A stretch of 58,999 nt of DNA from Elusimicrobiota bacterium. Lineage in GTDB: Bacteria; Elusimicrobiota; Elusimicrobia; UBA1565; UBA9628. The notes below the pieces were generated by a model. The model was not told where the DNA came from. It searched no databases and saw nothing but the letters and a program-made list of their open reading frames with translations. Shown piece after piece: positions 1 through 30,962 of the stretch. Each line of letters begins with the position of its first letter. Positions within the stretch are counted from its first letter, which is position 1. The position numbers and the translations under genes were made by a program. The stretch is taken from the NCBI GenBank assembly GCA_016182905.1, contig JACPFR010000044.1, positions 1 through 58,999 of the forward strand, read 5' to 3'.

Positions 1-555
1 CGCCCCCGCCGAGCCCGCCCCGCCTCCGCCCGCGCCCGCCCCGGCCGCCGCCCCGGCGCCGGCCGCGTAGCCGCGCCCGCGCGCCGTGATTGTCGAGCCG
101 CCGGCCAGGTTGAACGAGCCCGAGGCGTAGAACCTCAGGAAGGGCGCCGGCCCCGTCGCGGCGGGCGCGACGGTGAAGGCGACGCTCGTCCCCGGGAGCA
201 GGGCGATGTCCGTCGCCGCCACCGAGGCCCCCGTGGAGACCTGGAGCGCCGCGCCGTCGCGCATGAGCATGGTCCCGCCGACCGCGAGCCCGGTCGAGAG
301 TTGGAGCACCGCCGCCGGCGTCACGCCCGCCTCGCCCAAGGTCAGCGAGGCGACGCCGAGCGCCGGGTCCGTCGAGTAGGCCACGACGGTCCCGGACGGG
401 ATGGTCACCGCGTCGAACGCCCCGGGCACCGACGCCGGCGTCCAGTTGCCCGCGACGTTCCAGTCCCCGGCCGCGCCGCCGGTCCAGACGACCGCGGCCG
501 CCCGCGCGGAGCCCGCGAGCATGACGGCGCAGACGGCGGCGAGCAGGCGCCTCAT
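1..555 (-). CDS. Large secreted repeat/adhesin-like protein, N-terminal part (truncated by window edge)
   Basis: The frame opens with ATG at 553-555 and stays open for 185 codons to base 1, so only the N-terminus is visible. The start shares one base with the stop of the upstream barrel gene (TGATG), implying translational coupling. It begins with a signal peptide (MRRLLAAVCAVMLAGSARAA) followed by WTGGAAGDWNVAGNW, a motif common at the start of passenger-like, beta-helical surface proteins, and then by Ala/Gly/Thr-rich beta-strand-like sequence ending in a Gly-Ala tract. By position it matches the giant gene of the second FecR-barrel locus in this window. Secretion is well supported; adhesin function is an inference from composition. 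Confidence 0.75.
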   Translation of the reverse strand, partial: MRRLLAAVCAVMLAGSARAAAVVWTGGAAGDWNVAGNWTPASVPGAFDAVTIPSGTVVAYSTDPALGVASLTLGEAGVTPAAVLQLSTGLAVGGTMLMRDGAALQVSTGASVAATDIALLPGTSVAFTVAPAATGPAPFLRFYASGSFNLAGGSTITARGRGYAAGAGAAAGAGAGGGGAGSAGA

Positions 556-1775
556 CACCAGTCCCACCGGAAGCCGGCGAGCGCGCTCGTCGCCTCGTAC
601 GCGTAGCGGTAGTAGCGCTCGAAGCGCTGGTTCGACTTGGCGCTCGCCCGCTCGAGCGTGAACACGAGGCTGAAGCGCTTGACGATCGGATAGGTCAAGG
701 TGCTCGCGACCGTCCACTCTGTCGTCGAGAGCGGCCCGCCGGCGTACGCCCCCGTCTCGTCCTGCGCCCGGCGCCCGGCGTACGAGCGTCGCCGCCAGCC
801 GATCGAGAGGTCCACCGCCACCGGCGCGCGCTGCGGCCCGACGAGCAGCTTCACCGCCGGCGTCACCGACACCTCGCGATAGTCGTAGAACTTGGCCAGG
901 AACGCCCCGCGCGAGGCGTCGTAGCCGTTCTGGTTCGACGACAGCACGCCCAGGCCGAAGGTCAGCGACCCCAGCGCGCGCAGGTCGGCGTTCCACTCGT
1001 GCGGCATCCGGGCGGCGACGCTCAGCGCGGTCAGGAAGTCCGCGCGCGTGTCCGCGTCGAACTGCCCCGCGTCGTTGACGACCTTCTGGCTGGAGTAGCG
1101 CGACCACACCGTGGACAGCCCCGCGTCGAGCCGCACGCGCTCGCCGACGGGCATGTCGAACGCCGCTCCGAGGCGCACGCCGCTGCGGTCGAGGACGCTG
1201 TCGCCCACCAGCTCGCGCGCGACCGGCGCGCCCGCGAACTGCAGCGCCGCCTGCGACTCGAGGCTCGTGTAGTTGGGATACGACGCGTCGAACCAGTCGA
1301 GCGCCGCGCGCGCCGAGTGCGGCTCGCGCGTGAGGAACTCCGCCTCCGCGCCGACCGTCCACAGCCGCTCGTCGAACAGGCCGCCGCCCCAGGACTCGTC
1401 GGCCGTCTCCTTCAGGAACCCGAGCTTGTACGAGATCCCGGGCTTCAGGCGCCAGCGCGACGCCGGGTCGGCCCACACCGCGCGGAACGCGACCTTGTGC
1501 TCCATGCGCTCCTGCGCCGGCGTCGCGGTCCCGAGCGTGTCGGTCACGCGCCGCGTCCCCTCGTAGGACGAGCGCACGGACGGGAGGAACGACCAGTCCT
1601 CGTCGTGCCGGATCGCGGGCGCGAACACCGCGTCGGCGTTCCCCGACAGCGCGCCCTTGTCCCCGCGGAAGAAGTGCACGCCGCCGAGCGCCTGGATGCC
1701 CGCGATGGGAGTGATCTCGATCGCGTCCGCTGACGCGGCCGCCATCGAGAGCACGACGGCTATCAACAGCCTCAC
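555..1775 (-). CDS. Outer-membrane beta-barrel protein, paralogue of the barrel at 28154-29398
   Basis: A 406-residue protein starting at GTG 1773-1775. The start overlaps the upstream FecR-gene stop as GTGA, so a longer in-frame extension is rejected. A signal peptide (VRLLIAVVLSMAAASADA) precedes alternating hydrophobic/polar strands rich in Tyr, Trp and Arg, and the protein ends in an aromatic strand (GFRWDW), as outer-membrane barrels do. It shares FLKETADESWGGGLFD with the second barrel (FLKETRDESWGRGLFD), as well as a WRLKPG/WRVKPS strand and a YRYAYEATSALAGF-like C-terminus. It is likely an outer-membrane pore or anchor serving the secreted protein next door. No characterised family is recognised. 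Confidence 0.8.
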   Translation of the reverse strand: MRLLIAVVLSMAAASADAIEITPIAGIQALGGVHFFRGDKGALSGNADAVFAPAIRHDEDWSFLPSVRSSYEGTRRVTDTLGTATPAQERMEHKVAFRAVWADPASRWRLKPGISYKLGFLKETADESWGGGLFDERLWTVGAEAEFLTREPHSARAALDWFDASYPNYTSLESQAALQFAGAPVARELVGDSVLDRSGVRLGAAFDMPVGERVRLDAGLSTVWSRYSSQKVVNDAGQFDADTRADFLTALSVAARMPHEWNADLRALGSLTFGLGVLSSNQNGYDASRGAFLAKFYDYREVSVTPAVKLLVGPQRAPVAVDLSIGWRRRSYAGRRAQDETGAYAGGPLSTTEWTVASTLTYPIVKRFSLVFTLERASAKSNQRFERYYRYAYEATSALAGFRWDW

Positions 1776-3190
1776 GGCGTCTGCCTCGTCGCGCCGATGG
1801 CGTCGGACGGCAGGACGATCTTGATCGTCCGTCCTCCGAACGTCGTCCGGTCCTCGACGTTGCGGTCGGGCGAGGCGAAGCCCGAGCGCGGCCCCGCGCC
1901 GCCGCCGAAGTCGAGCGCGAGGGTCTCCCGGACGAGGGTCGTCCCGTCGCCGTACGACTCGCGCCTCACCTGGCGCGCCGCCGCCGCGTCCGGGAAGGTC
2001 GTGTTGATCACGACGACCGGCAGCGCCGCGCCGAGCAAGGCCCCGGTCAGGGGATCGTTCGTCGTGCTCGCCGCGGCGTCCGCGTAGGTCTGCAGGTTCA
2101 CGCCGGTGAACCCGCGCTTGAGCGCCCCGTTCGCGTACAAGCCGTAGCGGTCGAAGATCGTCCGGAACGCCGCGCCGCCGCCCGCGACGTCGTCGAGCGG
2201 GTCCGCGTTCCCGTTCACGTCCACCTGATGGCCGCCGGAGCCCTTCTCCGCCAGCGAATCCGCCGCGTCCGCGCGCGTCATCGTGAAATCCGTCACCGTC
2301 CACGCGCTCGCCGACGCGCCGCCCCTCAGGCTCGCGAAGACGCCCGACAGGTCCGCCGGCAGCGCCGCGTCGAAGGTCCCGTCCCACGCGTAGTAGGACA
2401 GGCCCTCCGGCCGCCCGTTCATCACCACGAGCGCCAGCCGGTTACCCGCGGGGCGCACCACGTACTCCTCGACGCGCACGCGCCGTCCGTCCGCGTCGGT
2501 CAGCAGGCGCCCCTGCTCGCGCTCCGCCCGGCGCGTCTCGCGCGCGGCCGCCGCGAAGTCCGCGTCGCGCCCCAGCTCGAAGCCCAGCTCCCGCCGCATC
2601 GACGCCATGAAGTCGATCTTGCGCGCCTGCACCGGCGTCGGCGCGGCGGTCGGCTCGTGCACGCCCGCGAGGTCCACCTCGATGCGCTGATCCCTGCGCA
2701 GGATCACCGACGCGCCGCGGTTGTCCTCGACGCCCGCCACGCCCTCCTCCACCTCGACCGTCGTGTTCCCGCCCCCCGCCACGGTCACGCGCGCCAGCAC
2801 GCGCTCCCCGCGCGCCCGCACGACGCACGTCGGCGTGCGCACCGACACCGACCGCCCGCGCGGCGCGTCCGCGATCATCCTCACCGTGCCGAACAGCGCG
2901 TGGACGCTCGTGTGCCCGGGCGTGTCCACCTCGACGGACACGTGGGCGTTGCCCTCGGCGATCAGGACCGTCCCGCCGTTGAGCTCGACGCGCGCCTTGG
3001 CGTTGAAGCCGGTCCGGATCCCGTCCCCCTCTCCCATCGGGCGGGGCGTCTTGCCGGCGGGGCGCCAGCTGTCGCCCCCGGCGGGCCGGACCTGGACGAG
3101 GCCCGTCGCCTCGCGCAGGACGGCGGCGCGAGCGGCGGTCGAAGCGGCGAAAACCAGCGCCGCTGTCAGGAAAACCCGGAACGGGGGCAT
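1772..3190 (-). CDS. Secreted FecR-domain protein, first of two paralogues
   Basis: A 472-residue protein with a signal peptide ending near ARAA. A FecR-like domain (about residues 22-160) follows, with the pattern G.VQVRPAG..W, GDGIRTGFNAKARVEL, GTVRMIADAP and VSVRTPTCVVRARG. The C-terminal half is shared with the FecR protein at 29409-30962: RRVRVEEYVVRPAGNRLALVV versus NRVRIEEYIVRPAADQFKLVV, GGHQVDVNGNADPLDDV versus GGHQVDINNNAVGAVDDV, and FGGRTIKIV versus FGGRKIDLV. Classical FecR is a membrane anti-sigma sensor, but there is no sigma-factor gene here and no transmembrane helix, so a periplasmic or surface structural role is more likely. It is the first gene of the left module; a TAGACT -10-like hexamer lies 7 bases before its ATG. 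Confidence 0.85.
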   Translation of the reverse strand: MPPFRVFLTAALVFAASTAARAAVLREATGLVQVRPAGGDSWRPAGKTPRPMGEGDGIRTGFNAKARVELNGGTVLIAEGNAHVSVEVDTPGHTSVHALFGTVRMIADAPRGRSVSVRTPTCVVRARGERVLARVTVAGGGNTTVEVEEGVAGVEDNRGASVILRRDQRIEVDLAGVHEPTAAPTPVQARKIDFMASMRRELGFELGRDADFAAAARETRRAEREQGRLLTDADGRRVRVEEYVVRPAGNRLALVVMNGRPEGLSYYAWDGTFDAALPADLSGVFASLRGGASASAWTVTDFTMTRADAADSLAEKGSGGHQVDVNGNADPLDDVAGGGAAFRTIFDRYGLYANGALKRGFTGVNLQTYADAAASTTNDPLTGALLGAALPVVVINTTFPDAAAARQVRRESYGDGTTLVRETLALDFGGGAGPRSGFASPDRNVEDRTTFGGRTIKIVLPSDAIGATRQTP

Positions 3191-3279
3191 TCCTATTAGT
3201 CTAACAGCGCTCCCCCGTCAGCGGTGAACGCTTTTGTTACAAGTTTCAGCCTATTTTCCCGGCCGAATTTGAAATCAGA

Positions 3280-3816
3280 CTATCTCCGCGGCGGAGAATG
3301 AGCGCCGGGCTTCTCCTGTACGACGGGGCGCGCCTCGGCCGGCTCCTTCCGCTTCACCGGCTGGGACTCTTGGCGCGCCTTATCCTCCTTCCTGTCCGCC
3401 TCGCGCCGGGAGACTTCGGCCGCCTGCTCCTCCCGGTACTTGCGCAGGGCCTGGTAGGCGCGGCCGGCGATCAGCGCCATCAAGGTTGTGCCGAAGAACG
3501 CGAGCAGCACCCACGCAGCCGCCATCAGCGCGCCGCTGGCCGAGTTCATGACGATCATCAGGCCCTCGGCCACTCCCGGAGGCGGCCCCGGCGGGGCGTT
3601 GCGGTCGATGAAGCCGCCGCCGAGGGGCGCGGGCAGGCCGCCGGTGAATGAGACGGCGAACACGCCGAACTTGATGAACTTCGCCCAGTGTATGGCGACG
3701 CCTTCGGGGAGCAGCCGTATGAGCGTCTGCTCGATCGAGGCGGAAAACGCGGCCGTCACGCCGAGGGCCACGAGCGCCGCGGCGGTGTACGCCAGCAGCA
3801 GGGGTTGGATATCCAT
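3280..3816 (-). CDS. Hypothetical inner-membrane protein with charged C-terminal tail
   Basis: A 178-residue protein with a good Shine-Dalgarno (GGAGG, 6 bases before ATG). It has about three hydrophobic helices: residues 5-27, a Gly/Pro-rich loop-flanked stretch around 45-62, and a long one at 85-118 (NSASGALMAAAWVLLAFFGTT). The last 55 residues are strongly charged, with many Lys, Glu and Arg (KYREEQAAEVSRREADRKED), and probably form a cytosolic helix or tail. No family was recognised. It stands alone between the FecR module and the GNAT pair, with a TACTAT -10-like hexamer shortly upstream. Confidence 0.65.
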   Translation of the reverse strand: MDIQPLLLAYTAAALVALGVTAAFSASIEQTLIRLLPEGVAIHWAKFIKFGVFAVSFTGGLPAPLGGGFIDRNAPPGPPPGVAEGLMIVMNSASGALMAAAWVLLAFFGTTLMALIAGRAYQALRKYREEQAAEVSRREADRKEDKARQESQPVKRKEPAEARPVVQEKPGAHSPPRR

Positions 3817-3936
3817 GTTCGCCTCCGGGCTCCTCGCATAGTATGCCCCCGGCGAGCCGAGGCCGCGACCAAATTAGGCTCAAATCACGGGGAGGCGGCC
3901 TGCGTTATGGCTCCGGCCGCTCGTGCCGAGGCTCGT

Positions 3937-4440
3937 TCATGGAGCCGCCGCGTCGGATTTCCCTCGCGGGAAATCGGCGAGAGGCCCTACCGTCTTGCGC
4001 AACAGCAGTTCAGAGTATCCCCGGACGACATAGTCCTTCAGCTCTCCCACAGGTTCATAGCCCAGCCTCGCGTACAATTCTCTGGCCCTCGAGTTGAAAG
4101 AAGAAACACAGATGAACACGTTCGGGGTTTCGGCAAGGATCCGCTCTTCAGCAAACCGGATGAGGCGGGATCCGATCCCGTGACCGCGCTGCGCCGGATC
4201 GACAGCGACCGTCTGTATGTAACCCCTGAATGCTCCCCCCATCACCACGACGATCAAGCCCGCAGGCTCGCCTCCGATGGTCGCGACATACACCTCCCGC
4301 GATGGGTCTTGAAGGACGCCTAATGCGGAATCATAATTCCGGCGCAGGGTGATCCAGGGCTCAGAGCTCGCCATCAGACTCGCACACCACTGGAACTCAT
4401 GAAGACCATCCGCACGGCGGATCTTAATTTCGATCGTCAC
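3937..4440 (-). CDS. GNAT family N-acetyltransferase (second of a tandem pair)
   Basis: A 167-residue protein starting at GTG. It carries the acetyl-CoA pyrophosphate-binding motif QRGHGIGSRLIRFAEERI (motif A, about residues 95-112), preceded by the strand GYIQTVAVDP and followed by motif B-like FICVSSFNSRARELYARLGYEPVGE. GNAT enzymes move an acetyl group from acetyl-CoA to an amine; the substrate cannot be read from the sequence. The gene overlaps the preceding GNAT gene by 17 bases, so the two are probably co-translated. Its base composition is visibly less G+C-rich than that of the surrounding genes, suggesting acquisition together with its neighbour. Confidence 0.85.
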   Translation of the reverse strand: MTIEIKIRRADGLHEFQWCASLMASSEPWITLRRNYDSALGVLQDPSREVYVATIGGEPAGLIVVVMGGAFRGYIQTVAVDPAQRGHGIGSRLIRFAEERILAETPNVFICVSSFNSRARELYARLGYEPVGELKDYVVRGYSELLLRKTVGPLADFPRGKSDAAAP

Positions 4441-4969
4441 GTTTCCCCGCCGAGCCGCCGATCGGGCGTGCCATGACGATGTCTCGCTGCGGATCAGCCC
4501 CTAAACTGAAAATGTGGTCTCCGACTTCTACAAACTTGAATTTCTTATAGAACGAGATCGCTCTTGGATTTCGCTCCCAAACACCGAGCCAGGCGACATC
4601 CGATCCGCGCTTCTCCATTTGAGTCATGCACGCCGCCATCAGGTCTTTTGCGATACCTTTGCCGTGCCATGCGTTCAGCACATAGAGTCTTTGAATCTCC
4701 CCGGGACGGTTCGCGGAGACGCAATCCGGCGCTTTTCCCCAGCGAAGCTGTGCAAATGCGATCAGACTCCCTTTCTCTTCACATACCAACGTGACCATCT
4801 CCGCATTCGAGATCTCCGCCGCTTGGATCGATTCGCCGTAACTGGTTTTGCAATGAAGATTCATATCTTCAATCGCATTCACGCCGCCAAATGTATCCCG
4901 AAATGTTCGCTCAGCCAGCGCGGCCAGCTTCCCTGCATCGGAAGGTTCTGCAGATCGGATCGTTGACAT
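4424..4969 (-). CDS. GNAT family N-acetyltransferase (first of a tandem pair)
   Basis: A 181-residue GNAT protein. The N-terminal STIRSAEPSDAGKLAALAERTFRDTF, the central IQRLYVLNAWHGKGIAKDLM (motif A variant with H-G-K-G-I-A) and LGVWERNPRAISFYKKFKFVEVGDH are typical of the PaiA/polyamine-type subgroup, although substrate assignment is only suggestive. The ATG at 4967-4969 lies 22 bases from copy 1 of the 125-base direct repeat, which may supply its promoter (TTGACG, 18 bases, TGATTA). Lower G+C than flanking genes suggests lateral transfer. The downstream GNAT gene overlaps its 3' end. Confidence 0.85.
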   Translation of the reverse strand: MSTIRSAEPSDAGKLAALAERTFRDTFGGVNAIEDMNLHCKTSYGESIQAAEISNAEMVTLVCEEKGSLIAFAQLRWGKAPDCVSANRPGEIQRLYVLNAWHGKGIAKDLMAACMTQMEKRGSDVAWLGVWERNPRAISFYKKFKFVEVGDHIFSLGADPQRDIVMARPIGGSAGKRDDRN

Positions 4970-4991
4970 CGTTGTCTCTAAGGCGCCTGAC

Positions 4992-5115
4992 CAATAATCA
5001 GACTGACCAGCTCAATTCCGTCAAGAGATCAGTCGTCCTCGGATTGTACAGCGAATATCAGCAATTAACCAGTCTTTCCGAGACCACGAGTCAGACATGA
5101 TAGACAGGGGCGGCC
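4992..5115. repeat. Direct repeat, copy 1 (about 125 bases)
   Basis: Copy 1 of an element found again at 8582-8708 in the same orientation. Three blocks are conserved: CTGACCAGCTCAATTCCG, an identical 34-base core (5041-5074 here, 8632-8665 in copy 2) and AGACATGATAGACAGGGG. Both copies lie just upstream of a lower-G+C minus-strand gene. On the minus strand both could encode a short peptide containing DWLIADIRCTI, but the frame ends at different places. No convincing inverted repeat was found, so it is not a standard attC site. Confidence 0.85.
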
Positions 5116-5136
5116 GAATCCGCGATCGCGCGGCGC

Positions 5137-5439
5137 TCAGGGGCGGGCGCGCTCGAGCTCGTCGAAGGCCGCCGCGCACCGCCCTTCCAGGACCTCGAGT
5201 TCGCGACGCCACTCGCCGTCGCTCAGGCCCGGTATGAACCGGTCGCCGAGCGCCTTGGGATGGCAGGACTCGCCGATCCGGAACAGGGCTTCCTTCGTCC
5301 CGAAGCGCCCGTCCATCGACGACAGCTCATCCTCCAGCCTCGCGGCGCACGCCCCGTCGGCCGCCTCGCCGGATCGGCCCAGCAAGCCGATGATACGGCG
5401 GACCTGCTCCTTCGCGGCTTCGAGCGTCGTCTGCGTCAT
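5137..5439 (-). CDS. Hypothetical 100-residue cytosolic protein
   Basis: Begins MTQTTLEAAKEQVRRIIGLLG. It is predicted mostly alpha-helical and charged, with two cysteines and no signal peptide. Codon use matches the host (G/C in third positions), unlike the flanking GNAT and HNH patches. A TAGTCT -10-like hexamer sits 6 bases before the ATG, the leaderless pattern seen elsewhere in this window, although that hexamer overlaps the stop of the upstream gene. No family recognised. Confidence 0.55.
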   Translation of the reverse strand: MTQTTLEAAKEQVRRIIGLLGRSGEAADGACAARLEDELSSMDGRFGTKEALFRIGESCHPKALGDRFIPGLSDGEWRRELEVLEGRCAAAFDELERARP

Positions 5440-5443
5440 GCGC

Positions 5444-5731
5444 CTAGACTAGGACTTTCCAGCCGGTCCGCTCAAGCGTGCCGACGTACTTTTCCAGGAA
5501 CTCCCAGGCCTGGGCCTCGTCGGGCAGGACCTCCACCTCGTTGTAGAAGATCGCCTGGCCCTTCCGCCAATGGGCGATCTTCTTCGGAGGGCGGTCGCAA
5601 TGCGCGCGTACGACCGTCCCCAAGGATTGCGTGGAGATGAACAGATAGAACTCCTTGAGCGTGTCGTTCGAGGCTTCGAAGACCGTCACCCGTAAATTGT
5701 AGGTCGAAAACCTCTCTATGACAATGGTCAT
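5444..5731 (-). CDS. Hypothetical 95-residue protein
   Basis: Read from ATG 5729-5731 (MTIVIERFSTYNLRVTVFEAS). A longer reading is possible but would run into the upstream membrane-protein gene. It is a small alpha/beta protein with strands near the N-terminus and an amphipathic segment EAQAWEFLEKYVGTLERTGW near the C-terminus. There is no signal peptide or membrane segment. It probably belongs to one minus-strand transcription unit with the genes at 5137-5439 and 5761-6105. Function unknown. Confidence 0.6.
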   Translation of the reverse strand: MTIVIERFSTYNLRVTVFEASNDTLKEFYLFISTQSLGTVVRAHCDRPPKKIAHWRKGQAIFYNEVEVLPDEAQAWEFLEKYVGTLERTGWKVLV

Positions 5732-5760
5732 AGTGGCGCTGGCCCGCCTTTCTGGACGCG

Positions 5761-6105
5761 TCAGGCCTGGGGCTCGCCCTGGAGCGGCTTCCACACGAAC
5801 AGGTACCAATACACGGGCATCGCGATCGCGTTGCCCATGAACAGGACCACGGCCCACAGGGCCTTCTTGTCCTGCGCGATCTCGTCGGTCTTGAACAGGT
5901 GCAGGATGTAGAACACGAGCAGGCCGAGCATCTCCGCCATCGTGAAGAAGTGCAGGACGATCAGGACGCCGAAGAACGAGGGCATCTGATTCGAGCCTCC
6001 TCTCATCAAGAAGAACGACGAGGCGACGGTCGCCATGAAGAAGAACATGTAGGCGATGGGCCAGACGGTGAACGCGGCCAGCACGAGCGCTTTGGGCTTA
6101 TTCAT
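5761..6105 (-). CDS. Small polytopic membrane protein
   Basis: A 114-residue protein with about four hydrophobic helices: 6-35, 43-70 (FGVLIVLHFFTMAEMLGLLVFYIL), 82-95 and 96-106. The final part (KALWAVVLFMGNAIAMPVYWYLFVW) loosely resembles the short membrane segments of PLDc_N-type proteins; this is a weak impression. A clear Shine-Dalgarno (AGGGAG) precedes the ATG. Function unknown. Confidence 0.65.
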   Translation of the reverse strand: MNKPKALVLAAFTVWPIAYMFFFMATVASSFFLMRGGSNQMPSFFGVLIVLHFFTMAEMLGLLVFYILHLFKTDEIAQDKKALWAVVLFMGNAIAMPVYWYLFVWKPLQGEPQA

Positions 6106-6127
6106 GACGCTCCCTCTGATGAAACCT

Positions 6128-6697
6128 CTACCGGACTCCGGGGATGGATCGACCGTTGAACCGCTTCCACACGGCCCGCAGGCCCCGCAGCGAGCGGTGG
6201 AAGCCGTGCAGGCGCATCTCCCGGTAGGCGGCGGCCTTCGTCTTCCCGTCGTGCAGCACCCGGTACAGGCCGACGACCAAGCCGGTCCGGTCTTCCCCGT
6301 GCAGGCAATGGACGTACACCGGCCTCAGGCTCTCGTCGCGCAGCGATTCGACGGCGAGCATGAGGCGTTCCGGCTCCGGGGCGCCGAAGACGTCCTTGAT
6401 CGTCGCCGGCGGGCCGGAGGCGTCGATCACGGTCATGCCTAAAGCCGCGGCTTCGTCGTCGGAGCCCTCCGACGCGAGATGGAGCTTCACGACCGTCCTC
6501 ACGCCCTTGCCTCTCAAGAAGGCCCAGCCGGCGGCGGTCGGGTGGCCGCCGCGGTACACGCCGGGGGACACTTCGCGGAAGTTGGGCACGCCTTCGGCGG
6601 TCGAGGTGGACGGCGCGACGGTCTCGTCGGCGGCCCGGGCGACGGCCGGGACCGCGAGGCAGAACGCGAGGGTCAGCGCGATCCGGGGGCCGCTCAT
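6128..6697 (-). CDS. Secreted dual-specificity/tyrosine phosphatase-like protein
   Basis: A 189-residue protein with a signal peptide (MSGPRIALTLAFCLAVPAVARA). The phosphatase signature HCLHGEDRTG at residues 130-139 provides the nucleophilic Cys131 and phosphate-binding Arg137 of the Cys-x5-Arg superfamily. The upstream strand/turn NFREVSPGVYRGGHP matches the N-terminal part of bacterial DSP-like enzymes. It probably acts outside the cytoplasm on phosphoprotein, phospholipid or inositol-phosphate substrates; which one cannot be told. Its ATG overlaps the upstream gene's stop (ATGA), so it is co-translated with the anchored protein at 6694-7077. Confidence 0.85.
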   Translation of the reverse strand: MSGPRIALTLAFCLAVPAVARAADETVAPSTSTAEGVPNFREVSPGVYRGGHPTAAGWAFLRGKGVRTVVKLHLASEGSDDEAAALGMTVIDASGPPATIKDVFGAPEPERLMLAVESLRDESLRPVYVHCLHGEDRTGLVVGLYRVLHDGKTKAAAYREMRLHGFHRSLRGLRAVWKRFNGRSIPGVR

Positions 6698-7077
6698 TTG
6701 GAGGCGCCGTAGTTCATCAGCACGGAAAAGTCCTTATGGATGACGACGACGGCCCGGTAGCCGCCAAAGCTCTCGAGATAGATCCCGGCTTTCGGCGAAT
6801 GGGTCTTGCCTCCGGCCGAGAACGAGATCGACATGCCGGTTTCCCCCCGGAACGCCGGCGAGACCTCGACTTTCGCGCCGGGTTCGAGGTCGGGCACGGC
6901 GTGACGCCAGGCATCCCCGGTCAAGCTCACCTCGCTGAGACGGGCCTCCGTCTCGTTGACGATCGTGACGACGGGGCCTCCGGAGAATCTCCCGACGACG
7001 ACGAGCCCTCCGACGACGCAGAGGACGCCGAGCATCAAGATGACCACTCCGATCCGGGCGAGGCGTTTCTTTGTCAT
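6694..7077 (-). CDS. N-terminally anchored extracytoplasmic protein of unknown function
   Basis: A 127-residue protein: positively charged start MTKKRLARIG, one transmembrane helix (about 9-30), then a beta-rich domain containing VVTIVNETEARLSEVSLTGDAW and a YRAVVVIHKDF strand. It is probably exposed in the periplasm. It overlaps the downstream secreted phosphatase gene by 4 bases, suggesting a joint role, for example as partner or inhibitor; no direct evidence exists. Confidence 0.6.
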   Translation of the reverse strand: MTKKRLARIGVVILMLGVLCVVGGLVVVGRFSGGPVVTIVNETEARLSEVSLTGDAWRHAVPDLEPGAKVEVSPAFRGETGMSISFSAGGKTHSPKAGIYLESFGGYRAVVVIHKDFSVLMNYGASK

Positions 7078-7108
7078 GGATTCCTTAACGATCAGTTCAG
7101 CAGACGCA

Positions 7109-7187
7109 GCTGCCTAGCCTTGCGCTGGTGCGTCCGGACGCAACAGGACCCTGTTTTCAGACGTCTAAAGGGAACTGGCTAGGCAGC
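7109..7187. other. Nested inverted-repeat element (possible terminator or structured RNA)
   Basis: Outer arms GCTGCCTAGCC (7109-7119) and GGCTAGGCAGC (7177-7187) are perfect complements. Inside lie TGCGTCCGGACGCA (7129-7142), CAGGACCCTG (7144-7153) and AGACGTCT (7159-7166), each able to form a hairpin. It occupies the gap between a lower-G+C membrane-protein gene and a host-like gene. It lacks paired GTTRRRY/RYYYAAC cores, so an attC call is not made. Confidence 0.6.
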
Positions 7188-7195
7188 ATGATTTA

Positions 7196-7744
7196 TTACT
7201 TCTCATTCGCCTCATAAACAACGAAAGGGAGCTTGAAGATGATCCTGTAGCAACCGATGATATGCAGCAGGAACAATAGGAGATTCACGCTGAGATAGCT
7301 CCACCAGTCTCCATTCGCGCCAAGCAACTGGTGCGCTTGAAATAGGCTGCAACCATAGAACACCAGCCACGTTCCCCAGATGATGAAAATGGGAATGTAG
7401 GTATATCGGACAAATTTCCTCGAACCGGCATAATGAACTTCGTAGTCCACCAGATCTGAACCCAACAACGAATTCAATTTTCGAGATTTCGCCTTGACAT
7501 AGTTGGTCAGGTTCTGGGTATAGGCAAGCTGAAGGATTGCAAAGGCAGCAATTAGCACTAGACATGGCGGAACGAACAGAATCATCCAACTCAACGGCTT
7601 CCTATCGAGGAGGGTGCCGCCTGCCAGGGCGCCCGCAAGCAATAGGTACAGGGTGTAATTCGTTAGCCGATACCTTACGAGAATCTTATCTCGAACGTCA
7701 TGAATCTCCTGCGCGAGTATTCCGACCTCTATTTCTTTCGTCAT
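7196..7744 (-). CDS. Polytopic membrane protein of unknown function, low G+C
   Basis: A 182-residue protein read from ATG 7742-7744 (MTKEIEVGILAQEIHDVRDKI). An upstream in-frame ATG at 7763-7765 falls inside the attC-like hairpin and is less likely. It has about four membrane helices: YTLYLLLAGALAGG, SWMILFVPPCLVLIAAFAIL, IPIFIIWGTWLVFYGCS and LSVNLLLFLLHIIGCYRII. Base composition is markedly A+T-richer than the neighbours. It lies directly behind the HNH endonuclease gene and the attC-like site, as expected for a cassette-borne gene. It could be a membrane partner of the HNH protein, but this is speculation. Confidence 0.7.
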   Translation of the reverse strand: MTKEIEVGILAQEIHDVRDKILVRYRLTNYTLYLLLAGALAGGTLLDRKPLSWMILFVPPCLVLIAAFAILQLAYTQNLTNYVKAKSRKLNSLLGSDLVDYEVHYAGSRKFVRYTYIPIFIIWGTWLVFYGCSLFQAHQLLGANGDWWSYLSVNLLLFLLHIIGCYRIIFKLPFVVYEANEK

Positions 7745-7755
7745 ATGATTCGTCT

Positions 7756-7829
7756 GCCAACGCATGGCTCAGCCGCGCGCGCTAATGGCGCTCCGCACTG
7801 GCGCGCGTCGGCTGAAGCCGATGTTAGGC
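7756..7829. other. attC-like recombination site (integron cassette hairpin)
   Basis: Ends are GCCAAC (7756-7761) and GTTAGGC (7823-7829), matching integron core sites that pair with one base missing. Inside, 7766-7782 and 7801-7819 are complementary over 17 pairs, with two unpaired bases on one arm only, the extrahelical-base pattern of attC sites. The HNH stop codon TAA lies inside the GCCTAAC core read on the minus strand, as in many cassettes. No integrase gene is in the window. Confidence 0.65.
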
Positions 7830-8564
7830 AACCTCTTGGCGTAGTCGCAGAATCCTTCTGCCGTCCTGAATATTCAGCCAACGTTTTTCCCTCGCAATCG
7901 CCCGATGAAGAAGTCTGTGACAACTCGCACAGAGGAGGGCAATGTCGCTGAGTCGTGTCTTTCGTTCCATCGCCATAGAAACTGGCACCAAATGATGTGC
8001 TTCGAACCCTGCATCTTCAAAGGACGGCTCGGCGGACTTTGACTGCTCTAGGCACATATCACAGGCCAGCCGGCCTTTGCTCCATCGGACCTTAAGCAAT
8101 TGCCTTCTGACCTGCGGGTTGCGCTCCCGCCGTTTGTGGTTCTGAGTGACGATGCGTCCTTCGACAAACTCACTATCGTCGTCATCTCCTTCCGAATTGG
8201 GTAGTGACTGGGCGACCTGAACACCATTCCGAATCAGTTCTGCGAGTCGTCGGACCTCCTCTGGGCGCGAGCCGAGTTCGGGCCAAATTTTACGGTCCAT
8301 CTCCGAAACATTCCCCAAGCCCTTGCCTGTTGCCACTTTTCGAATATTTTGAAGCTTGAAGGCTACCCCTGCAGGATTCCGAAAAGACTCCTTCCGAGAC
8401 AAGGCGGCATGATATGGGAGTCGGCGAAGGGATTCCGACAGGCTTTCAACACGAGGATCGTTTCGAGATGGGACCTTCTCTTTACAGCTCAAGTAAAGGT
8501 CAAGGGCCAGGATTGTTTCATCGCGCGTCCAGTCTGGGTTTCCGTGTCCGTGGGTTCTTGCCAT
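7824..8564 (-). CDS. HNH endonuclease (McrA-like restriction/defence type)
   Basis: A 246-residue protein. The C-terminal HNH nuclease domain shows Cys168-x2-Cys171, the His190-His191 pair (FEAHHLVPVS), Cys212-x2-Cys215-His216 and LLH220: a zinc-supported HNH fold with the catalytic histidine present. The N-terminal ~120 residues (GNPDWTRDETILALDLYLSCK) resemble the leading domain of modification-dependent HNH nucleases. It is likely an intracellular DNA endonuclease in phage defence. Low G+C, an upstream repeat copy and the attC-like element at its stop codon suggest horizontal gain. A perfect palindrome TTGCTTAAGCAA (8573-8584) lies just before the ATG and could be an operator. Confidence 0.85.
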   Translation of the reverse strand: MARTHGHGNPDWTRDETILALDLYLSCKEKVPSRNDPRVESLSESLRRLPYHAALSRKESFRNPAGVAFKLQNIRKVATGKGLGNVSEMDRKIWPELGSRPEEVRRLAELIRNGVQVAQSLPNSEGDDDDSEFVEGRIVTQNHKRRERNPQVRRQLLKVRWSKGRLACDMCLEQSKSAEPSFEDAGFEAHHLVPVSMAMERKTRLSDIALLCASCHRLLHRAIAREKRWLNIQDGRRILRLRQEVA

Positions 8565-8572
8565 ATCTTGGT

Positions 8573-8584
8573 TTGCTTAAGCAA
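8573..8584. promoter_or_regulatory. 12-base perfect palindrome upstream of the HNH gene
   Basis: TTGCTTAAGCAA is its own reverse complement and lies 9 bases before the HNH start codon, adjoining direct-repeat copy 2. A dimeric repressor site is plausible for a nuclease gene, but no regulator gene is adjacent. Confidence 0.4.
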
Positions 8585-8708
8585 TAATTAGGCTGACCAG
8601 CTCAATTCCGGAATGGATTGATGCCATCCTTGGATTGTACAGCGAATATCAGCAATTAACCAGTCGTTCCGGGTCCTTGGGTAAGACATGATAGACAGGG
8701 GAGCGGCC
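8582..8708. repeat. Direct repeat, copy 2 (about 125 bases)
   Basis: Second copy of the element at 4992-5115. The 34-base core at 8632-8665 is identical between copies, as is AGACATGATAGACAGGGG; the segments between are diverged. It sits between the 3' end of the giant-protein operon and the HNH gene. On the minus strand, ATTCCG followed 18 bases later by TAATTA is a weak promoter-like pair matching the TTGACG/TGATTA pair in copy 1. Confidence 0.85.
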
Positions 8709-8733
8709 TGATCTGCGATGTCGGGGCGCCCGC

Positions 8734-9624
8734 TTACGCGGTCTTCTTGACCCAGACCCGCAGCAGCCGCGACGCCCGCCGCGGATCGTCCGCGTCCGTC
8801 ACCGCGCAGACCTCGAGCAGGTCGTCCTTCACCGACTTGAGCGCCAGCCCTTCGATCTTCTCGCCCTTGAGCCGGGCCAGAATCACCGGCTTCTTGCCCT
8901 TCACCATCGCCCCAATCACCGATCCCGCGACCTTGCCGTCCCGGTAGGTGTCCTTCCCCCCTTCGGCGGCCGCGGCGAAGTACGCCGTGCCCTCATGAAA
9001 GAACCCGTCCGTGAACGAGAGCGCGATGCGCCCCCAGGAACCGAGCGGCACCCGCCTGACCCGTATGCGCAGCGCCGAGGCCCGCCAGCGGCCTGCCAGG
9101 CCTTTGTGGAAGGCCTTCAGCCGCAGTTTGACGAGGCCGTTGAAGCCCGCCTTGCCGTTGCCGCGCTGAAGGAGCACGACCTTGCGCCGGGACACATACC
9201 CGCCCTCGATGTTGAGCCCCGGCACCGATGTCTCGAGAAGATCGATGAGCGGCCGGAAGTCCACCTCGCACGCGCTTTTAAACCGCCCCCGAGCGTCGAG
9301 CCTGATCAGAGAGCCCCGCGCGCGCCGGTCCTTGGAGCCCGACGGAAAAGCCACGAGCCGTCCAGCGCCCAGGTCGATGAGCGACTCCAGGTCCTTCTTG
9401 ACCCGCTTGCGCTCCCCGGCGGAGGCCGGCAAATCGCCCGGGAACAGCCGGTAGCCGCGGCCCTGGCCTTTGCCGTCGGGGATGCGGATGAGGTGGTTGA
9501 GGTCGTCGGCGACGGCCCAGAACCCGCCGGAGACGCGCGCCAGGCCGCTGCCGGCGCATAAGGCGCGCGTCTTGCCCTGCGCGCTCCAGCGCACCAGCTT
9601 GAGGGTCTCCCAACTCGGCTTCAC
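8734..9624 (-). CDS. Cytosolic beta-rich (propeller-like) protein, last gene of giant-protein operon
   Basis: A 296-residue protein starting at GTG 9622-9624, one base after the stop of the PorV-like gene. It has no signal peptide. Repeated strands (GFWAVADDLNHLIRI, GRLVAFPSGSKDRRARGSLIRLD, KVVLLQRGNGKAGFNGLVKL) and the domain size suggest a beta-propeller similar to uncharacterised DUF-type proteins of Bacteroidota and relatives; the exact family is not certain. Motifs such as NHLIRI and VLLQRGN indicate blade-like repetition. Position implies co-transcription with the giant secreted protein and PorV, although the product appears cytosolic. Confidence 0.7.
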   Translation of the reverse strand: MKPSWETLKLVRWSAQGKTRALCAGSGLARVSGGFWAVADDLNHLIRIPDGKGQGRGYRLFPGDLPASAGERKRVKKDLESLIDLGAGRLVAFPSGSKDRRARGSLIRLDARGRFKSACEVDFRPLIDLLETSVPGLNIEGGYVSRRKVVLLQRGNGKAGFNGLVKLRLKAFHKGLAGRWRASALRIRVRRVPLGSWGRIALSFTDGFFHEGTAYFAAAAEGGKDTYRDGKVAGSVIGAMVKGKKPVILARLKGEKIEGLALKSVKDDLLEVCAVTDADDPRRASRLLRVWVKKTA

Positions 9625-9625
9625 T

Positions 9626-22500: not shown

Positions 22501-25500
22501 GGCCTGGGACAGCGCGGCCGCCGCCGAGGTGCCGTTGCCGTTGAACGCGGTGATCGAACGGATCTGCGAGGAGGTGTTGGCCGGCAGGGCGTCGATGTAG
22601 TAGCTGACGGACGCGCCGAGCGAGGTGAACACGGAGCTGTCCGCGCGGCGCAGCTGATAGCCGGCCGCGCCGGGGACCAGGTTCCAGTCGAAGCGCACCG
22701 AGGGCGCCGAGGCGGCCGCCTGGAACGAGGCGGGCGCCGCCGGGGGCGCCAGGACGTTCAGCGCGAAGTCGAAGCGGGCGCGCCCGCCTGAGGGCACCGA
22801 GACGGTGGACAGCGCCGTCATCTGCTCCTCGCCGGCGGAGGGCTGACCGTCGAAGTTCTTGTCGAGGAAAGCGAACACGCTGTAGCCGGTGGCCGGACGC
22901 AGCAGATGGAGGGTATAAGGGAGTCCGGCGGGCGGGACGACGCCGAAAATCGGGACGATGACGCGGTTCTCGGTCTCGTAGCCGGGCGAGCCGGGCACGC
23001 CGCGCCCGGTCTCGACGACGATGGTGCCGGTCGCGCCCCCCTGGAGGGTCACCGAGCCCTCGATGGAGCCCATGTCCTGAAGGGTCACGTTGATGCCCGA
23101 GACGGTTCCGGAGCTGGGCACGTAGATCGGAGCAAGGAACGCGGGCAAGGTGCTGAGGCCGCCGCCGGCGGATCCGTAATAGCCGAGGGGCTCGGGACCG
23201 CTGGGCTTGCCGTTCCAGTCCCCGTCGCGATAGGCGACGAGGTAATAGGTGGCCGGGGAGGGCAGGCCGACGAACGAGAAGGGGCCCGCCGCGGCCAGCT
23301 GGGTGCCGCCGAAGAACTCGACCCGGCCGGTGAAGTCGGTGACCGTGGCCACGCCGACGCTGAAGTTGCCCTGGCCGAGCACTCCTCCGTAGACGATCGA
23401 GCCGCTGATGCCGCCCGAGCTCTGGTACATCGTCGCGTCCAGGTAGGAGGTCGCGCCCGCCTGGACCTGGACCTTCTGGACGCTCACGCCGAAATTGGAG
23501 TTCGAGCCGTGCGCGACCGCGAGATCGTACTCGCCCGGGGGCAGGCTGTTGATCCAGAACGGATAGGACGAGGAGGCCGCGACGCCGAAGCTCGTCGAGT
23601 TCTTCGGCGTAGTGCCGTTGAGCCGCGCCGTGACGGTGAGCGTGCCGGCGACCGGGGTCGAGTAGAACACCTGGCCGGAGATCGCGCCGACGCTGGAGCC
23701 CGAGGCGGTGAAGCCGGCCAAGACCTCACCCGAGTTGTCGGAGTAGGCCCCGACGAAGTCGTTCATCGCCAGGCGCAGCTCGCCGTCGCCGGGCGACGGG
23801 AAGGGAGCGCTCGAGGCGCCGATGCGGACCCACGGCGAGGAGTAGCTCGCGCCCGCCTGGGTCCGGCCGATCAGCTCGCCGAGGTTGGCCGAGGGAAGGA
23901 CGGTGTTGAGGCCCGTCGTGCCGGGCGCGCCGCCGGGACCCGTCGCCGAGTCGGACGGGCCGGTGCGCCAGGAGCCGGTCGAGATCACCGAGATCATCTG
24001 GCCGGGGAAGAAGTAGGAGCCCGTCCCCGCGCCGCCCTGCAGGTCGGGAGTCGCCGTCTCGTTGGCGCGGACCAAGGACATGATCGGCAGGGCCCCGGTC
24101 TGCACCGGGAAGTTCGGGGTGACCGAGAAGGTCCCGATCGAGAGGGTGAAGCTCGTGGCCGACTCGATCAGGATGCCGGCGGTGGAGCCCGGAGGAAGCG
24201 CGCTGCCGCCCAAGTCGAGCGCGATGAAGAAGTCCTTGGAGGCGCCGGAGGGCAGGAACGCCGGCTGCCAGAAGCTGACCGTGTACGTGCTCGGGCCGAG
24301 AGTGAAGATCGGAGCGTACCCGCGCTGCAGGTCGTACATCATGTTGAAGAGCCCGTCGCCGTCGTCCGCCCACACGCTGAAGGACGAGCCGGGGTTCGGG
24401 AGCGGTCCGCCCTGGTAGGTCAGGCGCAGCGCGGAGAGCTGAGCCGAGCCGCCGGACGCCGTCAGGCGCGCGCGGATCATCGCGTTGACGCCCGACGAGC
24501 CGACCGCGCCGCGGTGGACGGCCGAAGTGGCGAGCGTCACCGAGCCGCCGGGCGCCGCGTCGCCGCCGAAGATGCCGAAGTTGCCGACGAAGGTCTGGGA
24601 GACCGGGTTCACGTTGACGCCGGTGACCGAGGTCGACGCCTCGAACACGTCCCAGGCCCCGCTGCCGTTCGCGTCGATGAAGGCGAACACGGTGACCGGG
24701 GACGTCGCCTTCGTCAGGATCGCGTAGCCGGGATTGGCCAGGCCGCGCGCCTGGCGCGTGCTGGCCGACAGATTCGGCTGCCCGACCCAGGTCTCGACGA
24801 GCGCCGGTCCGGCCTGGTTCGACTGATTATTAAAGGAACCGCCGATCTCGCCCCAGTCTTCGACGGTGATGTTGATGCCGCCCGGCGTGCCGCCGCTGGG
24901 GATGAACACCGGCTCGGAGATCATATTGCCCGGGTGGCCGAAGCCGCCGGCCGGCGTGAAGGGGATCCGGTTGCCGCCGCTTTCCTGGTAGGCGAACAGG
25001 TAATAGGTGCCGGGCGCGCGCAGGCTGAGGACCGAGTAGCCGCCGGGGCTCACGGTGGTGGAGCCTCCGCCGCCGAGACCGGTGCTGGACGGCCCGTTCG
25101 GCGAGGTCGAGGCCATGACCATGTAGCTTCCGGCGGGTCCGGACAAAGTGCCGCCGATCGAGCCGGGGGCGCCGCCGCCGTCGGGCAGCCAGCGCACGAC
25201 GCCGTTCGGGTCCTGAGTCTTCGTCGAGCCGAAGCTGGTGCCGGCGATCCCGACGGAGTCGTTGAAGACGATGGTCGAGCCCGCGACGACGCCCGCGGCG
25301 TTGACGCCGGGGTTGCGGGAAGACGAGCCGGAATCCCACTTGTTGAAAGTATAGGCGACGGGGGACGACGCCGTGAACCGCACGTACGGAGAGGTCGACG
25401 TGAGGTTCGTGGTGATGCTCGCGTTGTCGAAGGAGAGGACGGTGGCGTTGATGAAGTCGACGAAGTCGACGCCGTCGAGGCTGATCGACGTCGCGGTCAC

Positions 25501-28047: not shown

Positions 28048-28153
28048 GGTCTCGGTGTTCCGTGATGCGGCACGTCGGCTAACGCTGAGTATATACCCTT
28101 ATTAAGGATGTTGCCAGGTGATATCCGTCACATTGCGAAGCTGTTCCCGACAT

Positions 28154-29398
28154 CTAGTATTCGTACGCCACTCCGATGAGATAGTTCATCGCGCGGTACG
28201 CGTACGCGTAGTTCTTCTGATATTTGTGGTTCGACGCGGCCCACAGGATGTTGGTGCGGAAGGTCAGCGTCAGCTTGGGCGCGAGTGGATAGCCGTAGCC
28301 CAGCGAGAAGGTGTAGCGGTCGTGCTTCTGCTTCGCCGAGCCGTACGCGCCGACCTCGTCCTGGACGAGGCGGCCGAGATAGCTCTGCCGGTTCCAGCGG
28401 AAGGAGGCGGAGGTCCACGCCGGAGCCTTCTTGTCCCCCCACGAGAGGACCGCCGCGGGCCCCGCGCCGAAGGTCCAGTAGCTGTACGAGTCGCCGAGGA
28501 AGCGGGCGAAGGTCGCGTCGAAGGTGTTCTGGTTCGAGCGGTTGTAGGAGAAGCTCATGGCCATGCTCAGATCGAGGCGCCCGTCGCCGTCGAACACGCG
28601 CATCGGGATCGGCCGCATGATCGAGCCGCCCAAGGACTGCAGGAAATCCTTGCGGCCGGTATCCTGGAACTGGCCATCGGTCTGCACGATGCGCTGATCC
28701 AGGAAGTCCTTATAAAGGAGCGAGTACGAGCCCGAGAGCACATACTTGGGCTCCTCGAAGGGCCAGGGGCGGGTCCCGGACACGGAGGCCTGCCAGTTGT
28801 AGGTGTCCAGCACGTGCTTCGAGGCCAGCTCGCGGCCGAGCGGGTTGCCGAACGGGTCCGTGCCCGAGCGCGACTCCAGCGACTCGTAGCTCGGGAAGCG
28901 CACCCGGAACGCGTCGAGGCCCGCCCGCAGGGAGAACGGTTCCTTATACATGTTCTCGAACTCGACGCCGGCCGAGATCTTCTCGTAGTCGAAGAGGCCG
29001 CGGCCCCAGGATTCGTCGCGCGTCTCCTTGAGGAACTCCCGCTTGTAGCCGGCGGAGGGCTTCACGCGCCAGGTCGATTCCTCGAGCTTGCGGATCCCGG
29101 TCATCGACACCGTATGGTCCATCTGCTGCTGGAACAAGGTCCCGGAGGCGACGCCGTCGTCGACGCCCTTGGTCCCGCGATACGAGCCGTTGTACATCGG
29201 CAGGAGGCTCCAGCGCTCGCTCAGCTTGACGAGCCCCGCCGCGGTGAGGGCGGCGTTGCCGCCCAGGTTCCCCCGCTGGCCCTGGAAGAAGTACTGGCCG
29301 CCCGACACCGACCCGTTGAGCACGGGCGTCCACTCGACCGCGGAAGCGGGGAGGGCGGCGGCGAGCAGTACCACGCAGGAGAAGAGGGGTTTTATCAC
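28154..29398 (-). CDS. Outer-membrane beta-barrel protein, paralogue of 555-1775
   Basis: A 414-residue protein starting at GTG 29396-29398 (MIKPLFSCVVLLAAALPASA is the signal peptide). Long amphipathic strands alternate with turns, and the protein ends in NYLIGVAYEY, an aromatic last strand. It is clearly homologous to the first barrel: FLKETRDESWGRGLFD, WRVKPSAGYKREF, SYESLESRSG and a YAYAYRAMNYL C-terminus. It lies 10 bases after the FecR gene stop and upstream of the giant gene. It likely forms an outer-membrane channel or anchor specific to this module; ordinary porin function cannot be excluded. Confidence 0.8.
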   Translation of the reverse strand: MIKPLFSCVVLLAAALPASAVEWTPVLNGSVSGGQYFFQGQRGNLGGNAALTAAGLVKLSERWSLLPMYNGSYRGTKGVDDGVASGTLFQQQMDHTVSMTGIRKLEESTWRVKPSAGYKREFLKETRDESWGRGLFDYEKISAGVEFENMYKEPFSLRAGLDAFRVRFPSYESLESRSGTDPFGNPLGRELASKHVLDTYNWQASVSGTRPWPFEEPKYVLSGSYSLLYKDFLDQRIVQTDGQFQDTGRKDFLQSLGGSIMRPIPMRVFDGDGRLDLSMAMSFSYNRSNQNTFDATFARFLGDSYSYWTFGAGPAAVLSWGDKKAPAWTSASFRWNRQSYLGRLVQDEVGAYGSAKQKHDRYTFSLGYGYPLAPKLTLTFRTNILWAASNHKYQKNYAYAYRAMNYLIGVAYEY

Positions 29399-29408
29399 GA
29401 ATGCACGA

Positions 29409-30962
29409 TCACGGGATCAAGCCGGATTGGATGAAGATCTTGGGTTCGACGACGAGGTCGATCTTGCGGCCGCCGAACTCGGAGGCCGTCACGATGGTCT
29501 GGAAATTCCAGCCCAGCAAGGTCTGCTTGAACGACTGGCCGCCGAAGCTGGTCGCGGCGAAGTCGCTCGCCTTGGCGATCTTGCCGAGGTCATTGATGAC
29601 GTAGCTGTCGTACTTCTCCCAGACGCTTCCGTCGCCGTTGGCCGCGTAAACGACGTCATGGAAAACGCCTTCCCCGATCTCGTTGTAGGTGCAGTCCGGC
29701 GGCGCGCAGCCAGGGGCATTCTGCACGGTGGTCACGTTCGTGAAGACGGGCGCGAGCGCCTGCCCGTTCTCCATGTTCTGGATGTTCACGCCGGCCCAGC
29801 TCTGGTGGCTCACGCCGTTGAAGGTGAGGTTGTAGTTGTCGAAGAGCGTCTGGTAGAACGACCGGCCCGTCGCCAGGGGAATGAAGGTGGCGGTCGCGGG
29901 ATCGTAGGCCGCGGCGACGTCGTCCACCGCGCCGACAGCGTTGTTGTTGATATCGACCTGGTGCCCGCCGCTGGCGACCTCGAGCATGCTGTCCTGGGTG
30001 TTCGAGCGCCCGGTCCGGTAGGAGGTCAGGAAGTAGGAGCACGCCGCGTCGAGGCAGCCCGTGATCTGGCGGAGGGCGACGGACATGTCCGTCGGCAGCG
30101 CCTGGTTGAAGGTTCCTTGATAGAAGAAGTAGTCGAAGCGGGTGTCGCGCTCGTTGAGCACCACGAGCTTGAACTGGTCGGCGGCGGGGCGCACGATGTA
30201 CTCCTCGATGCGGACCCGGTTGCCGTTGACGTCGATGATCGCCTTGCCTTCCTGGAACTCCGAGAGCTTGCTCTCCTCGGCGGCCGCGGCCTGGACCTCC
30301 TCCTTGCTCATGCGCAGGTCCACCTCGCGTTTGGCGGCCTGGCGGGCCTCGGAGTCGCCGCGCTCCTCGCGCGTCCCGGCGTCGGTCACGCGCCCGAGCC
30401 CCTCGCTCGTGACGCTGACGCTGTCCCGGTCCTTGATGAGCACCTCGTTGCCGGCCTTGTCGGCCACGGCGAGCAGGCCGCCGAACATCTGCACGCGCGT
30501 GTCGCCGGACCCGTCGACGTCCACGCCGAACTCGGTGCCGCGGACGGAGCAGACGGCGGTCGGGGTGCGGACCTGGAAGCGGCGGTTGAGGCTCTTGGAG
30601 ATCCACGCCTTCAGCGACCCGAGCTTGAGCTCCATCCCGCTGGCCTCGGGCGAAGCTTCCTTGAGGGTGAACGACGAGCCGGGGCTGAGGTCGACGCGGG
30701 AGGCGTCGTCGAACGTCACCGTCGCGCGCGCGCCGCCGGCCGTCTTGAGCTGGTCGCCGGGGGCGAGCACCTGGCCGCTCGACACCTGGGCCCAGGTGTA
30801 GGAGCCTGATTTCAGGAAGAGGACCTTGCCGTCCGCGGAGGTGATGGAGACCGCCCCGGCGCCGGCCGCGCGGAAGAAGGCGGCCAGAAGGACGGCGGCG
30901 AACGCCGCGCGTCTCCCGGTCCGTGAATTCCTTGGCTCGGCCTGCTGGAATTCAAGGCTCAT
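29409..30962 (-). CDS. Secreted FecR-domain protein, second paralogue (heads the giant-protein operon)
   Basis: A 517-residue protein with an Arg-rich N-region, then a hydrophobic signal (FAAVLLAAFFRAAGAGA). The FecR domain lies at about 40-190: VLFLKSGSYTWAQVSSG, LAPGDQLKTAGGARATV, VDLSPGSSFTL, FQVRTPTAVCSVRGTEFGVDV. The middle part is charged, perhaps coiled (SEARQAAKREVDLRMSKEE). The C-terminal domain is shared with the FecR protein at 1772-3190 (VRIEEYIVRPA, GGHQVDINNN, FGGRKIDLVV). No sigma factor is adjacent. A strong promoter (TTGACA, 17 bases, TATACT) lies 12 bases before the ATG and probably drives the whole 22-kb operon. Confidence 0.87.
   Translation of the reverse strand: MSLEFQQAEPRNSRTGRRAAFAAVLLAAFFRAAGAGAVSITSADGKVLFLKSGSYTWAQVSSGQVLAPGDQLKTAGGARATVTFDDASRVDLSPGSSFTLKEASPEASGMELKLGSLKAWISKSLNRRFQVRTPTAVCSVRGTEFGVDVDGSGDTRVQMFGGLLAVADKAGNEVLIKDRDSVSVTSEGLGRVTDAGTREERGDSEARQAAKREVDLRMSKEEVQAAAAEESKLSEFQEGKAIIDVNGNRVRIEEYIVRPAADQFKLVVLNERDTRFDYFFYQGTFNQALPTDMSVALRQITGCLDAACSYFLTSYRTGRSNTQDSMLEVASGGHQVDINNNAVGAVDDVAAAYDPATATFIPLATGRSFYQTLFDNYNLTFNGVSHQSWAGVNIQNMENGQALAPVFTNVTTVQNAPGCAPPDCTYNEIGEGVFHDVVYAANGDGSVWEKYDSYVINDLGKIAKASDFAATSFGGQSFKQTLLGWNFQTIVTASEFGGRKIDLVVEPKIFIQSGLIP

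Follow-up and report, generated by a model that had tools for sequence, protein, structure and literature searches.

Elusimicrobiota are among the phyla richest in huge proteins of more than 5,000 amino acids (aa), whose functions were left unassigned in the survey concerned (PMC11573180). How such giants are exported, and what receives them in the outer membrane, is the question raised by a 58,999-nucleotide stretch of Elusimicrobiota DNA (contig JACPFR010000044.1, here C44; hereafter the window), in which genes for a FecR-domain protein, an outer-membrane beta-barrel and a giant secreted protein follow one another. A first-pass annotation took this arrangement for an undescribed secretion, anchoring or surface-display module. 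Our analysis leaves the novelty standing for the FecR-barrel pair, for which anchoring is predicted, and not for secretion, since a sorting domain, PorV and SprA point to a route like the type IX secretion system (T9SS): the new part is the pair, and the export step is most likely of the known SprA-PorV kind. We propose, by analogy and with a probability of about one half, that barrel and FecR protein are an accessory that anchors or holds a PorV-delivered giant exported by this T9SS-like route.

The FecR-barrel pair and its conservation

The genes for FecR protein, barrel and giant were present twice in the window, all on the minus strand, in the order and at the positions first annotated (Table 1). 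The two copies are paralogous beyond chance, at E = 6.9e-45 for the FecR proteins and at the value given in Table 1 for the barrels, and they have in common the motifs EEYxVRPA, GGHQVD and FGGR (FecR) and FLKETxDESWGxGLFD (barrel). In the left copy FecR and barrel genes overlap by 4 bp (GTGA) and barrel and giant genes by 4 or 1 bp (GTGATG), within the 1-4 bases claimed before. The three genes are real, but the module as first drawn was incomplete: a fourth gene, of the PorV family, had been overlooked, whose start overlaps the stop of the right giant by 4 bp. A third full copy lies elsewhere in the genome, at locus L012 of contig C27; it runs FecR-giant (1,507 aa)-PorV-barrel with overlaps at every junction.

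Profiles of the barrel and of the FecR C-terminal domain were searched independently in 295 genomes of the phylum, and matched 117 and 116 of them, respectively. Both were found in 113 genomes and neither in 175; occurrence alone, which would have spoken against a conserved module, was confined to 4 genomes with the barrel only and 3 with FecR only. We then considered linkage in 80 named loci with 84 barrels, of which 76 were assessable; as these loci were gathered via the barrel, the figures express linkage given a barrel, a bias from which the phylum-wide searches are free. FecR was linked to the barrel in 70 of 76 cases: it directly preceded the barrel in 63 and directly followed it in 2, and in the other 5 giant and PorV lay between the two. 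Co-occurrence beside proteins of more than 1,000 residues, as expected by the first-pass annotation, was likewise observed: where at least 3.3 kb of sequence followed the pair (45 pairs), the next open reading frame (ORF) had at least 1,000 aa in 33, while PorV came next with the giant upstream in 3, an ORF of 700-999 aa in 2, and none of these in 7. Many families have retained the linkage; three rearranged orders of the genes occur, and genes overlap by 4 bp.

The barrel tree resolved the right, left and C27 copies as supported clades, each spanning several genomes, and the FecR tree recovered the same three paralogue groups. Because the paralogues split within genomes, FecR and barrel have been duplicated together. 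Pairwise distances of 60 FecR-barrel pairs correlated with r = 0.91, whereas permutations gave at most 0.16; the correlation partly reflects shared species history. Judged from their sequences, FecR and barrel co-evolve and are inherited as a pair. Tandem FecR-barrel pairs with very divergent second barrels occur in L101, L103, L120 and L124. Contigs labelled Sumerlaeota, Caldiserica and Clostridia (L106, L116, L118) carry barrels nested among those of Elusimicrobiota; they are probably misnamed or misbinned, the other option being transfer.

The right FecR protein comprises a Sec signal, a FecR domain (residues 70-162) and a new C-terminal domain (about residues 220-517), and its AlphaFold2 (AF2) model reached a predicted local distance difference test score (pLDDT) of 88.4. 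Direct reading of the sequence placed a Sec signal at the N-terminus of both FecR proteins of the window. The modelled N-terminal domain matched PDB entries 4m0n and 6ovk, the latter the C-terminal signalling domain of PupR (E = 1.1e-6 to 4.9e-6, Foldseek), and in this fold resembles the FecR/PupR anti-sigma regulators of TonB systems. In contrast to those regulators, the module protein has a Sec signal and the new C-terminal domain; a Pfam scan and direct reading found no cytoplasmic anti-sigma domain in the window FecR proteins, and no extracytoplasmic function (ECF) sigma factor, FecI or TonB receptor was found among the module neighbours scanned. Fec-type regulation was rejected on these grounds, as it had been before. 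Overall, the protein is secreted, is of FecR fold and is distinguished by the new domain at its C-terminus.

This C-terminal domain gave no significant Foldseek match; RseB and LprG, both of LolA-like fold, were among the non-significant ones and serve as a lead only. In a search of PDB sequences, matches of the FecR protein were confined to the FecR domain, besides weak ones to MtxA and an antifreeze protein. Leptospira LipL45/Lsa33 matched weakly in the FecR region (41 and 37 bits, far below the curated cut-offs), and LapA retention-module proteins reached 21 bits (cut-off 50). LapA-like retention was rejected because this match lies below threshold; moreover, in contrast to LapA systems, the giant comes without type 1 secretion or LapA-type architecture. 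One locus (L113:7494-8594) encodes the C-terminal domain without a FecR domain, 1.4 kb upstream of a barrel.

For the right barrel, AF2 returned a confident model (pLDDT 93.4, predicted template modelling score 0.88) with 16 strands and no plug, which does not fit a TonB-dependent receptor with its 22-strand barrel and plug. No Pfam family matched most barrel members, and the barrel profile found only chance matches among PDB sequences. An AlgE-like exporter was the top Foldseek match and was rejected, since a template modelling (TM) score of 0.34-0.45 and a root-mean-square deviation above 10 A amount to generic barrel likeness.

Export route of the giant proteins

The right giant carries a Sec signal, DUF2141, CarboxypepD_reg and PPC-like domains, and at its C-terminus a FlgD_ig domain (about residues 5733-5813; PF13860, 31.7 bits, cut-off 27) whose position and motif layout are those of T9SS type A sorting domains. 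The C27 giant likewise ends in a sorting domain (TIGR04183, 32.6 bits, cut-off 23); the C-terminal domains of the giants are of FlgD_ig or Por_Secre_tail type. Within-protein BLAST found no internal repeats in the right giant, and its 103-aa tail had no phmmer match in the PDB. A second family (L183/L184, G210:C14:27771-54659) has an orthologous giant of 8,962 aa, whose reading frame contains no internal stops; over the last 2,500 residues identity is 41%. The genes there are likewise arranged in tandem (FecR-barrel-giant-PorV-FecR-barrel-giant), and 0.3 kb separates the copies.

The PorV-family protein encoded behind the right giant scored 159 bits with NF033709 (PorV-family scores were 159 and 127 bits, both above the cut-off of 90) and 37 bits with PF19572 (cut-off 27), and matched the PorV chain F of the solved T9SS translocon (PDB 6h3i, E=2.6e-9). 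A SprA/Sov homologue of 1,860 aa is encoded elsewhere in the genome (L181:7311-12893; PF14349, 28.3 bits, cut-off 27); phmmer gave it no match in the PDB. SprA-like matches were found in 254 of the 295 phylum genomes. The genome contains about 20 PorV-family genes (NF033709), and numbers in many relatives were similar, as lower bounds. Among 17 other PorV neighbourhoods (L163-L179), most PorV genes directly follow an ORF with a sorting-domain-like tail, and these cargo-PorV pairs lack FecR and barrel, indicating that the FecR-barrel pair is an addition to some cargo-PorV pairs. Sorting-domain giants in the barrel loci were linked to PorV in 30 of 30 assessable cases, immediately in 26 and after an intervening FecR-barrel pair in 4.

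Because the giant bears a sorting domain, is paired with PorV and is accompanied by a genomic SprA, the secretion route is most likely, on homology, a T9SS-like SprA-PorV pathway; an unknown secretion system was rejected on the same evidence. It shares with the SprA-PorV-type A C-terminal domain (CTD) route of Flavobacterium and Porphyromonas the SprA homologue, the PorV family and an immunoglobulin-like (Ig-like) sorting domain on Sec-exported cargo. It differs in its Elusimicrobiota host, as T9SS genes are absent outside the FCB (Fibrobacteres-Chlorobi-Bacteroidetes) phyla according to a 2024 review (PMC11285876), and in its numerous PorV copies, most often one following each cargo, whereas in F. 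johnsoniae a single PorV serves all type A cargo (PMC12618676).

Proposed role of the pair in the outer membrane

In the mechanism that we propose, the giant would cross to the periplasm via Sec, the PorV encoded directly behind it would capture its C-terminal Ig-like sorting domain, and the giant would leave through the SprA-type translocon of the genome, with one PorV per cargo; capture of the CTD by PorV and exit through SprA are taken by homology from the published mechanism (PMC10994853). In the outer membrane, the 16-strand barrel would then receive or hold the giant after its export, and the secreted FecR-fold protein may bind the barrel from the periplasm, bracing or gating it. Since PorV behind sorting-domain cargo is general in this genome, export should need no FecR-barrel pair as such, so that a role after export remains for the pair. 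The proposal is further supported by the signal peptides of the FecR proteins and by their FecR fold, which also occurs in proteins that partner outer-membrane proteins from the periplasm.

By analogy, the closest working counterpart of the FecR-barrel pair would be the type B CTD system of Bacteroidota (SprB-SprF, PG1035-PorP-PorE), in which the gene for a large surface cargo likewise comes together with one for a dedicated outer-membrane barrel and, in some operons, one for a periplasmic partner. The PorE-type partner of these systems is periplasmic and peptidoglycan-binding. PorE-PorP-PG1035 and SprF-SprB complexes hold type B cargo at the surface, and five F. johnsoniae operons also encode a periplasmic PorE-like partner (PMC9143113, PMC12618676). 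The likeness has its limits: the module barrel is not PorP/SprF by sequence, its partner is of FecR type rather than PorE, and its cargo carries a type-A-like domain and is already served by a PorV.

Several observations weigh against the proposed mechanism. The PorP_SprF family of Pfam matched 0 of 70 barrel family members, and PDB matches of the barrel model were generic (porins, chitoporins, AlgE and TonB receptors, with TM <0.5 to the query). The SprA homologue reached E=2.8e-51 with TIGR04189 but 174 bits, below the equivalog cut-off of 200; it is a SprA/Sov homologue whose equivalog status is uncertified by sequence. Neither the GldM motor (TIGR03517) nor the PorU C25 sortase (PF01364) was detected in 30 relatives (0/30 each), weak negatives, as these searches had no positive control. 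The parts of a T9SS supported in this genome are a SprA homologue, PorV and sorting-domain cargo. Finally, 6 of the 76 assessable barrels had no linked FecR, and 5 of these 6 belong to one syntenic class of ribosomal-protein/leuA-like loci without a giant, which indicates that the barrel can also function independently. In this class (L078, L091, L092, L095, L097) the barrel lies at about 10 kb (9.4 kb in L078); it is flanked by ribosomal-protein/lipid genes, a leuA-like gene and a GAF-domain gene, and ExbB/TonB-like genes follow downstream.

These ExbB/TonB-like neighbours would suit an alternative in which FecR and barrel are a separate uptake or sensing unit, with the barrel a porin-like channel for whatever the giant binds or degrades and FecR sensing or plugging it. 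FecR domains classically report the state of outer-membrane receptors, and the best, though weak, structural matches of the barrel model were AlgE, chitoporins and other porins. We consider this rather unlikely, as the cassette has no consistent regulator, inner-membrane transporter or degradative enzyme, the TonB-box receptor architecture is missing, and no plug appears in the modelled barrel. The barrel might instead be a second cargo-specific shuttle or translocon for giant export, like SprF/PorP though unrelated in sequence, with FecR as its periplasmic chaperone. It adjoins its cargo as SprF does (PMC12618676), and loci of the C27 type run FecR-giant-PorV-barrel with all genes overlapping; still, each such cargo already has a dedicated PorV, and many other sorting-domain cargo-PorV pairs of the genome do without FecR and barrel, which makes this quite improbable.

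That the neighbourhood merely reflects frequent linkage of unrelated envelope genes, the FecR-barrel pair having no functional tie to the giant, would agree with the 7 of 45 pairs with no giant directly downstream and with the barrels lacking FecR. We give this only a slim chance in view of the conserved linkage described above, with its rearranged orders and overlaps, and of the co-occurrence and co-duplication of FecR and barrel. Within the favored mechanism of anchoring after SprA-PorV export, we suggest tentatively, at somewhat less than even odds, that the FecR-barrel pair anchors the largest T9SS-like cargoes of Elusimicrobiota to the surface in a new way that needs no sortase, with one PorV per cargo and FecR as periplasmic brace or latch.

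Layout of the window and significance of the module

The window is the terminal part of the 143-kb contig C44 of a 3.98-Mb Elusimicrobiota genome. As its base 1 is the contig end, the left giant is truncated; its N-terminus resembles the giant that L067 has in this position (E=1.7e-9).

Table 1. Module genes in the window, with the evidence for each
Feature	Coordinates	Strand	Evidence
FecR-domain protein, right copy, 517 aa	29409..30962	-	PF04773 E=4.6e-15; AF2 model; PDB fold matches
16-strand outer-membrane beta-barrel, right copy, 414 aa	28154..29398	-	AF2 model; no Pfam family
Giant secreted protein, right copy, 5,817 aa	10594..28047	-	Sec signal; C-terminal FlgD_ig sorting-type domain
PorV/PorQ-family outer-membrane protein, 323 aa	9626..10597	-	NF033709, PF19572, PDB 6h3i chain F
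FecR-domain protein, left copy, 472 aa, Sec signal	1772..3190	-	PF04773 E=2e-7; 29% identity to right copy
16-strand barrel family, left copy, GTG start at 1775	555..1775	-	E = 1.2e-71 match to right barrel
N-terminus of second giant, Sec signal visible, cut by contig end	1..558	-	Likeness to L067 giant

The two window copies are separated by 6.4 kb of genes of lower GC content (61% vs 70-75%). This island (3200-9600) encodes an HNH nuclease, a DSP-type phosphatase, a GNAT acetyltransferase and a DUF6929 protein. The corresponding module copies are only 80-322 bp apart in L064, L067, L082 and G210, and the island looks like a later insertion between them. Genes for housekeeping RpoD (32434-34155) and DnaG (34170-35924) adjoin the module; the earlier statement that no sigma factor is present is thus right for FecI and ECF types and wrong for RpoD.

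The open-access literature searched yielded no paper describing a T9SS or a FecR-barrel module in Elusimicrobiota. Our results give the giants of this phylum, of up to about 9,000 aa, a plausible export route and partners, and would place a SprA-PorV-sorting-domain pathway outside the FCB group, whereas recent reviews restrict the T9SS to that group (PMC11285876). The organization of one PorV per cargo makes the specificity between cargo and carrier testable by comparison, and the FecR-domain family is placed in a non-regulatory context. If the proposed role is true, the FecR-barrel pair would represent a new means of attaching cargo to the surface of the cell.

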